DNA from: Alphaproteobacteria bacterium
Lineage (GTDB): Bacteria; Pseudomonadota; Alphaproteobacteria; UBA8366; GCA-2717185
DNA: 64,000 nucleotides
NCBI GenBank assembly: GCA_040905865.1
Contig: JBBDQU010000005.1
Span: 1 to 64,000, forward strand
Direction: 5' to 3'
In this document: one piece after another, positions 41,779-52,128 of the stretch
Position numbering within the stretch: position 1 is the stretch's first letter
Layout of the letters: each line of letters begins with the position of its first letter
Notes under the pieces: model-generated
Database searches by the model: none
What the model was told of the DNA's origin: nothing
What the model saw: the letters and a program-made list of their open reading frames with translations, nothing else
Made by a program: the position numbers and the translations under genes

Positions 41779-42212
41779 CCCATCATCTCGTCGTTCGTGT
41801 CGTATCCAAGCTGTTGATTCCCTTCATCCTGGTGTTCGGCCTTTACGTCCAGTTTCACGGCGATTTCGGGCCGGGCGGGGGCTTCCAGGCCGGCGTCATC
41901 TTCGCCGCCGCCTTCATCCTCTATGCGCTGGTCTACGGGCTGAACAATGCGCGCCGGGTCCTGCCGGATCGCTGGGTACGGATGGGGGCCGCGCTGGGAG
42001 TCATCATCTTTGTCGGCACCGGCTATGTATCGCTGTTCCTCGGCCACAATTTCCTGAATTACGACCCGCTGGCGCACGATCCGACGCATGGCCAGCATTA
42101 CGGCATCCTCGCGGTGGAGCTGGGCGTCGGTGTGACGGTTGCGTCGGTGATGGTGGCGATCTTCTTCGCCTTCGCCGGACGCGGCCACAAGATCGACGAG
42201 TTGGAAGGCTGA
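41775..42212 (+). CDS. mnhB: MnhB/MrpB-like antiporter subunit
   Basis: 145 residues with four membrane helices. The signature GDFGPGGGFQAGVIFAAAFI (about residues 30-49) is typical of MnhB. The ATG at 41775 overlaps the previous stop (ATGA); the open frame extending upstream of it is a shadow. Confidence 0.93.
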   Translation: MTHHLVVRVVSKLLIPFILVFGLYVQFHGDFGPGGGFQAGVIFAAAFILYALVYGLNNARRVLPDRWVRMGAALGVIIFVGTGYVSLFLGHNFLNYDPLAHDPTHGQHYGILAVELGVGVTVASVMVAIFFAFAGRGHKIDELEG

Positions 42213-49476: not shown

Positions 49477-50055
49477 ATGTCGAGACTTGAGCCGTTTCAC
49501 CCGAAGGATATGTCGCCCGAACAGCGGGCCTATTACGAATCCATCGCCGCGCGGCCGAATTTCCGGGACCTGCCGGAAGGCACGCCGCTGACCGGCCCGT
49601 ATCACGCCTGGCAGCACGCGCCGGCCTATGCGGAAAAGCTGGGCGTGCTGGAACAGTATCTGCGCGTCCAAGGGCTGCTGGAGCCGCGGCTGATCGAACT
49701 GACGGCGATCACGGTGGGGCGCATCTGGTCGGCGGAAATCGTCTTCGGCTCGCATGCGCCGGTCGCGGTGAAGGTCGGCATCGACAGCGAAATCGTCGAG
49801 GCGATCCGCCACCGCAAGACGCCGGTTTTTGCCAGGCAGGACGAGGAAGCGGTTTATAATTTCGTCCATCGCCTGACGACCGAGCACGAGGTCGACGACG
49901 CGACCTACAAGGCGGCGCTGGACGTATTGGGCGAGGCGAAGCTGGTGGAACTGATCGGCGTCGCCGGGCTGTATGTCATGGCGTCGATGACCCTGAACGC
50001 CTTCCGGATTCCCGTCCGCCCCGGCATGGCGCGGCCCTACCCGGACAGGCAATAA
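49477..50055 (+). CDS. Carboxymuconolactone decarboxylase-family protein lacking the CxxC motif
   Basis: 192 residues; start ATG at 49477 with GGGAGAA upstream. The fold region LIELTAITVGRIWSAEIVFG and the following SHAPVAVKVGIDSEIVEAI fit the CMD/AhpD family. Redox-active members have a CxxC pair before the histidine; here those positions are filled by SAEIVFGS, so peroxidase activity is unlikely and a decarboxylase- or isomerase-like role is more probable. It lies 65 bases downstream of the ABC exporter, across the repeat. Confidence 0.85.
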   Translation: MSRLEPFHPKDMSPEQRAYYESIAARPNFRDLPEGTPLTGPYHAWQHAPAYAEKLGVLEQYLRVQGLLEPRLIELTAITVGRIWSAEIVFGSHAPVAVKVGIDSEIVEAIRHRKTPVFARQDEEAVYNFVHRLTTEHEVDDATYKAALDVLGEAKLVELIGVAGLYVMASMTLNAFRIPVRPGMARPYPDRQ

Positions 50056-51343: not shown

Positions 51344-51507
51344 GCAGATTACTCCGGAAATCCGCCCGCAGACTATGCCGCGGCGCGCCGCGCAGGCAAG
51401 CGATAGCACGGGATTGTTATACGGCGGCGGGTTGTCGCGTTGCCTGTCCCGTGGCATTGTCGCGCAAAGGCCGGATACGGCCATTTTCCCAACAAAGGAG
51501 CCGCCCG

Positions 51508-52128
51508 ATGGCAGAGCCCGTTACGCTGGAAGTCTTTACCGACTACGTCTGACCCTGGTGCTATCTCAGTACGGTTCGTATTGAAAAGCTGAAGGAAAAT
51601 TTCAACATCGCGGTCAGGCTGGTGCATTTCCCGCTGCACCCGGATACGCCGGGCGAAGGAAAGTCGCTGGAAGACCTGTTCGCCGGCCGGGGCATGGACC
51701 TGAAGGCCAGCTATAACCGGATGAAGGGATTGATGGACGCCGAGGGCCTGCCCTATGGCGAGCGTTCGCATACCTATAACAGCCGGCTGGCGCAGGAACT
51801 CGGCAAATGGGCCGATAACCAGCCCGGCGGCGAAAAGCTCCACGATGCCCTGTATCGCGGATACTTTGTCGACAAACGGAATATTGGGGATGTCGATGTG
51901 CTGCTCGATATCGTCAAATCCGTCGGCCTGTCGGTGGATGCGGCGCGCGAAGTGCTGGAAAGCCGCAGCTTCAAGGATGCGGTGGACGCCGACTGGGCGA
52001 AATCGCACCGGTATGGCGTGACCGGCGTGCCGACCTTCGTGGCCGGCGGCCATGGCGTGGTTGGGGCGCAGCCCTATGAGGCTATAGCCCATCTGCTGAC
52101 CGAAGTCGGGGCCGAACCGCGGGGCTGA
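51508..52128 (+). CDS. DsbA/FrnE-like thioredoxin-fold selenoprotein (in-frame TGA read as selenocysteine)
   Basis: 206 residues if the TGA at 51550-51552 is read through. ATG at 51508 has AAAGGAG 7-8 bases upstream. The N-terminus reads MAEPVTLEVFTDYV-(TGA)-PWCYLSTVRIEKL. In the DsbA/FrnE-type family (PF01323) this is the first beta-strand followed by the catalytic CPWC, so the TGA stands exactly at the first cysteine, giving UPWC. The other 191 codons after it are intact, including the cis-proline segment GVTGVPTFV. A SECIS-like hairpin follows the TGA. Selenoprotein FrnE/DsbA homologs are known in marine bacteria. Treating TGA as stop gives a truncated start near GTG 51622. The reaction is probably thiol-disulfide exchange. 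UPF0178 gene follows 19 bases later. Confidence 0.85.
51550..51589 (+). promoter_or_regulatory. Bacterial SECIS-like element after the UGA
   Basis: After UGA (51550-51552), CAGUAC (51567-51572) pairs with GUAUUG (51578-51583) around the loop GGUUC, which begins 21 bases past the UGA. A lower stem GCU/AGC (51560-51562 with 51587-51589) has a small internal loop. A short stem, a small loop with G in the first two positions and this spacing fit the bacterial SECIS rule for SelB binding. Confidence 0.7.

Follow-up and report, generated by a model that had tools for sequence, protein, structure and literature searches.

DsbA-like selenoproteins with a UxxC motif (COG2761) were reported in 2005 from the Sargasso Sea data, where nine sequences were found (PMC1088965), and in 2008 a family named 'DsbA 1' was described with 63 sequences in the GOS data and was commoner in marine samples (PMC2398784). 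A review from 2026 has an entry for 'DsbA-like protein form 1' (PMC13188914). The sequence-only reading of the locus studied here had noted such proteins in marine data, and the two surveys bear this out. Our gene fits a selenoprotein kind already known from marine bacteria, with 'DsbA-like protein form 1' as the closest; PF01323/COG2761, the UxxC motif, a SECIS-type hairpin directly 3' of the UGA and widespread Cys homologues are common to both. This likeness rests on the Pfam and COG assignments and the motif, as given in published descriptions, and no difference in kind was shown.

Among solved structures, sequence matches were obtained with FrnE of Deinococcus radiodurans (DR_0659; PDB 5cnw, 5cp1; E 4.1e-24) and with SCO1869 of Streptomyces coelicolor (PDB 3gl5; E 4.5e-21, TM-score 0.87), a putative DsbA oxidoreductase with no description as a selenoprotein. 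The match to D. radiodurans FrnE spans residues 3–204 and places its CPWC at the same site, where Sec would replace the first Cys in our protein. D. radiodurans FrnE has been described as a disulfide reductase/isomerase of the cytoplasm, and its mutant shows sensitivity to cadmium and diamide; the CxxxxC motif near the C-terminus of the protein, proposed to aid regeneration, occurs in many but not all FrnE proteins and is missing from those of S. roseofulvus and D. maricopensis (PMC8945050). There was also a weak local similarity between the C-terminal half of the query and NF041057 (Rcas_1661 family thioredoxin-like (seleno)lipoprotein), and membership in this family was rejected at 33.5 bits against a cut-off of 190.

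The window, that is, the whole analysed stretch of 64,000 nucleotides, carries the gene with the features listed in Table 1. Translation through the TGA gives MAEPVTLEVFTDYVUPWCYLSTVRIEKL..., with D-Y-V-U-P-W-C-Y around codon 15. As read earlier from the letters, this is the one in-frame TGA, and the 191 codons that follow it (codons 16–206) stay open. U15 and C18 are the sole Sec/Cys residues of the protein, C18 being its only Cys. The ribosome site noted before the ATG is present, and most of the homologues shown have a purine-rich stretch upstream as well. Gene callers cut such genes short, so that the active site is lost; here, as predicted, a plain ORF finder gave just a GTG fragment of 168 amino acids (51622–52128).

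Table 1. Coordinates of the predicted selenoprotein gene and associated elements in the window.
Feature	Position	Strand	Remarks
CDS, predicted FrnE/DsbA-like selenoprotein	51508..52128	+	206 residues plus stop; UGA predicted to be recoded at codon 15
Shine-Dalgarno-like AAAGGAG	51494..51500	+	just 5' of ATG 51508
UGA predicted to be recoded (Sec15)	51550..51552	+	opens UPWC redox motif; TGA in 86/103, TGC/TGT in 17/103 homologous loci
Cys18 codon TGC, putative resolving Cys of UPWC	51559..51561	+	TGC/TGT in 103/103 homologous loci
Candidate SECIS, upper hairpin	51566..51584	+	7-bp stem UCAGUAC/GUAUUGA, apical loop GGUUC
Outer 3-bp helix, 51560-51562 with 51587-51589	51560..51589	+	around hairpin; weaker support
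True terminator, again TGA	52126..52128	+	sequence

We aligned 103 homologous loci, made up of those from genomes of the same order and of 80 loci from named genomes, some genomes being reached twice. The in-frame UGA falls in one column with the catalytic Cys of the homologues, and codon 15 is TGA in 86 loci, TGC in 11 and TGT in 6, a Sec/Cys ratio that is biased towards the query, as the named-genome loci are the nearest 80 of 228 relatives. The proposed comparison with cysteine homologues thus showed the expected exchange of TGA for a Cys codon, and the argument that a chance stop would be unlikely to hit this very codon is upheld by the 17 loci without TGA, which all have Cys codons. Of the 43 genomes of the same order, 20 (our own counted) carry the gene at 56–89% identity and with a single TGA, and three more have a distant homologue (about 35%) with Cys. 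On a maximum-likelihood tree built from 94 distinct proteins, three Sec/Cys changes are required: at the distant outgroup, at a single clade of 13 Cys members and at a lone locus, L116, within a Sec clade. L116 looks like a Sec-to-Cys reversion; it has lost the hairpin described below, and its genome gave no SelB hit. In addition, one MAG (bin.246) was seen to carry two different Cys-form copies (L097 and L101), and a SelB hit was found there too.

Purifying selection continues past the UGA, with a dN/dS of about 0.10–0.15 over 150 codons in the comparison with three congeners and two members of a sister genus; pairs with L032 and L025 were dropped because their alignments were not gap-free. 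Around the active site, D12, V14, P16, W17 and C18 are invariant.

Directly downstream of the UGA we found a conserved, covarying hairpin that has the layout of a bacterial SECIS, published as having a small apical loop that contains a guanosine (PMC1088965). The apical loop of 5 nt begins 21 nt past the UGA, and the G at its second position is invariant (alignment A1). Over 70 distinct TGA forms, 98% of the apical-stem cells were paired (94–100% per position), and when the stem was slid by 1–4 nt the overall pairing was only 22–66%. Pair 18–28 is U-A in 56 of these forms and C-G in the other 14 with no mismatch, the change being mostly synonymous on one side (Ser, AGU to AGC) and mostly Ile/Val on the other; at pair 16–30 both U-A and G-C occur. 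None of 500 shuffles matched the observed pairing or covariation score of 36 chosen sequences, a structural signal to which the kinship of the sequences could contribute in part. The window's own segment folds with an MFE of -14.3 kcal/mol (z -2.8). An Rfam scan of the SECIS region returned nothing relevant.

In the Cys forms the hairpin stem is gone, while the outer 3-bp helix is mostly pairable in them too. Codon 24 is CGT in 67/70 TGA forms and CGG or CGC in 13/14 Cys forms, and the protein after the active site reads mostly L-S-T-(V/G)-R-(I/V) in the TGA forms and L-G-D-N-R-V in most Cys forms. We think it fairly probable that a SECIS hairpin lying within the coding region shapes the protein, and that reversion to Cys, of which L116 is an example, sheds the hairpin and, in the L116 genome, was accompanied by loss of SelB.

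The source genome, 4.37 Mb in 85 contigs and estimated by the tool to be 100% complete, was searched for selA, selB, selC and selD, as had been suggested, and all four were present. A tRNA-Sec with anticodon TCA was found with Rfam RF01852 (68.3 bits) and also with ARAGORN, and profile searches of the genome gave SelA (563 bits), SelB (461 bits) and SelD (300 bits), each over its cut-off, with selA adjoining selB on contig C32. The presence of SelB tracks the TGA form. With a threshold of E <= 1e-60, SelB was detected in 17/20 genomes of the order with the TGA form versus 1/23 without it (p 4e-8, phylogeny ignored), and among the named-locus genomes in 16/17 with TGA versus 3/13 with Cys (p 9e-5, phylogeny again ignored). 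The three TGA-form genomes of the order that gave no SelB hit are 64%, 88% and 64% complete; the hit is absent as well from the genome of L062, a TGA form.

Besides this gene, the genome has a second UGA gene, which codes for a SelT/SelW/SelH-like protein of 72 residues (G000:C74:119186-119389; L136:1498-1716). It begins MKVTIEYCAVUNYEP..., with a CAVU motif and the UGA at codon 11, and scored over the TIGR02174 cut-off (53.7 versus 34.2 bits). When 58 nt from its UGA were folded, a hairpin CCCUC-CGUGC-GAGGG was obtained, whose loop begins 22 nt past the UGA and whose fold energy was no better than that of shuffles (z -0.15). Among the DsbA-like orthologues CGUGC is also the most frequent loop, there beginning at 21 nt; the loop common to both genes is suggestive only.

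Further selenoproteins of the genome were looked for family by family. No in-frame stop was present in its matches to formate dehydrogenase alpha (TIGR01591) or CMD/AhpD (PF02627), nor in any of its three other PF01323 proteins. In the window, TGA codons at 42210 and 36989, which have coding-like sequence on both sides in the same frame, were rejected as recoding candidates; in both places one gene seems to stop and another to begin, the TGA being closely followed by an ATG. A 192-residue protein encoded at 49477-50055 (+) matched NF053654, 'YciW-related (seleno)protein', weakly (22.5 bits, cut-off 310), and its translation has neither Cys nor an in-frame UGA.

A gene that is normal except for a single in-frame stop could also be a CPWC gene struck by a recent nonsense mutation. 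This is extremely improbable given that the TGA is kept across several phyla and that the codons after it remain under purifying selection. The TGC or TGT found at codon 15 in relatives of the Cys clade might similarly raise the suspicion of a sequencing or assembly error, for which a resequencing check had been envisaged; the identical TGA recurs in independent assemblies from congeners as well as from other genera, families and phyla, together with the SECIS hairpin that the Cys forms are missing, and the chance of such an error is negligible.

Stop readthrough exists in bacteria, and the UGA might be read through or be translated as Cys or Trp with no selenium involved, or this genome might use UGA as a sense codon. 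Cys is indeed the residue in the homologues without TGA, but the genome has a dedicated Sec system whose SelB occurs together with the TGA form, and the hairpin is laid out like a bacterial SECIS; against a UGA-sense code stand the SelA, SelB and SelD matches and the long ORFs of the window, which have no internal stops. We regard these variants, taken together, as very improbable. Translation from GTG 51622, which the ORF finder does list, would leave the upstream part untranslated and delete the active site, yet the conserved strand 1 and active site are encoded before this GTG, in codons 1–38, so this start is also exceedingly improbable. The decoding of the UGA as selenocysteine, proposed by the sequence-only reading, is supported by the machinery of the genome and by the conserved TGA in independent assemblies.

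The assignment to the DsbA/FrnE thioredoxin-fold family held up as well. The protein matched PF01323 (DSBA) with an E-value of 1.2e-33 and 116.9 bits (cut-off 25.6). In the AF2 model (pLDDT 94.8, pTM 0.90, with C modelled at position 15) we recognised the features of the DsbA superfamily, namely the thioredoxin fold, an inserted helical domain and a CxxC-type site at helix 1; V174-P175, with the DsbA-superfamily Pro near the last strands, is invariant. The best Foldseek hit was Deinococcus FrnE (TM 0.89, 1.8 A). The closest solved relatives are FrnE proteins and no signal peptide is present, which places the protein in the FrnE subfamily. It is probably cytosolic, because it has no N-terminal extension, the first strand of the model beginning at residue 5. 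By homology to Deinococcus FrnE, it is likely to function as a cytosolic thiol-disulfide reductase/isomerase. The FrnE-type C-terminal CxxxxC is absent, and therefore a different reductant would have to serve. No conserved partner was found in the gene neighbourhood; the MFS, YaiI/YqxD and lipase-like genes that flank it are common to the genus only.

We conclude, with a probability of about 0.96, that UGA15 is decoded as Sec by means of SelB and the hairpin, and that the product is a cytosolic UPWC enzyme of the FrnE branch, most likely a disulfide reductase/isomerase; Sec insertion and the redox activity at U15 are predicted from sequence. The ribosome would reach the UGA at codon 15, SelB with Sec-tRNASec would sit on the stem–loop about 14–32 nt 3' of it, and selenocysteine would go in and termination be avoided. 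From its place at the N-terminus of helix 1, the Sec15 selenolate would attack disulfides and Cys18 would then resolve the intermediate, so that cytoplasmic disulfides would be reduced or isomerised.

With its many Sec and Cys orthologues, the gene is a clear reference case that suits tests of Sec retention and loss in a disulfide oxidoreductase. The Sec form is now seen in an uncultured alphaproteobacterial family, and also in MAGs labelled Rokuibacteriota, Acidobacteriota, Deltaproteobacteria and Betaproteobacteria. Two loci titled Rhizobium (L060) and Bordetella parapertussis (L087) are in fact MAG bins; these titles may be unreliable, and the genes group among uncultured lineages.
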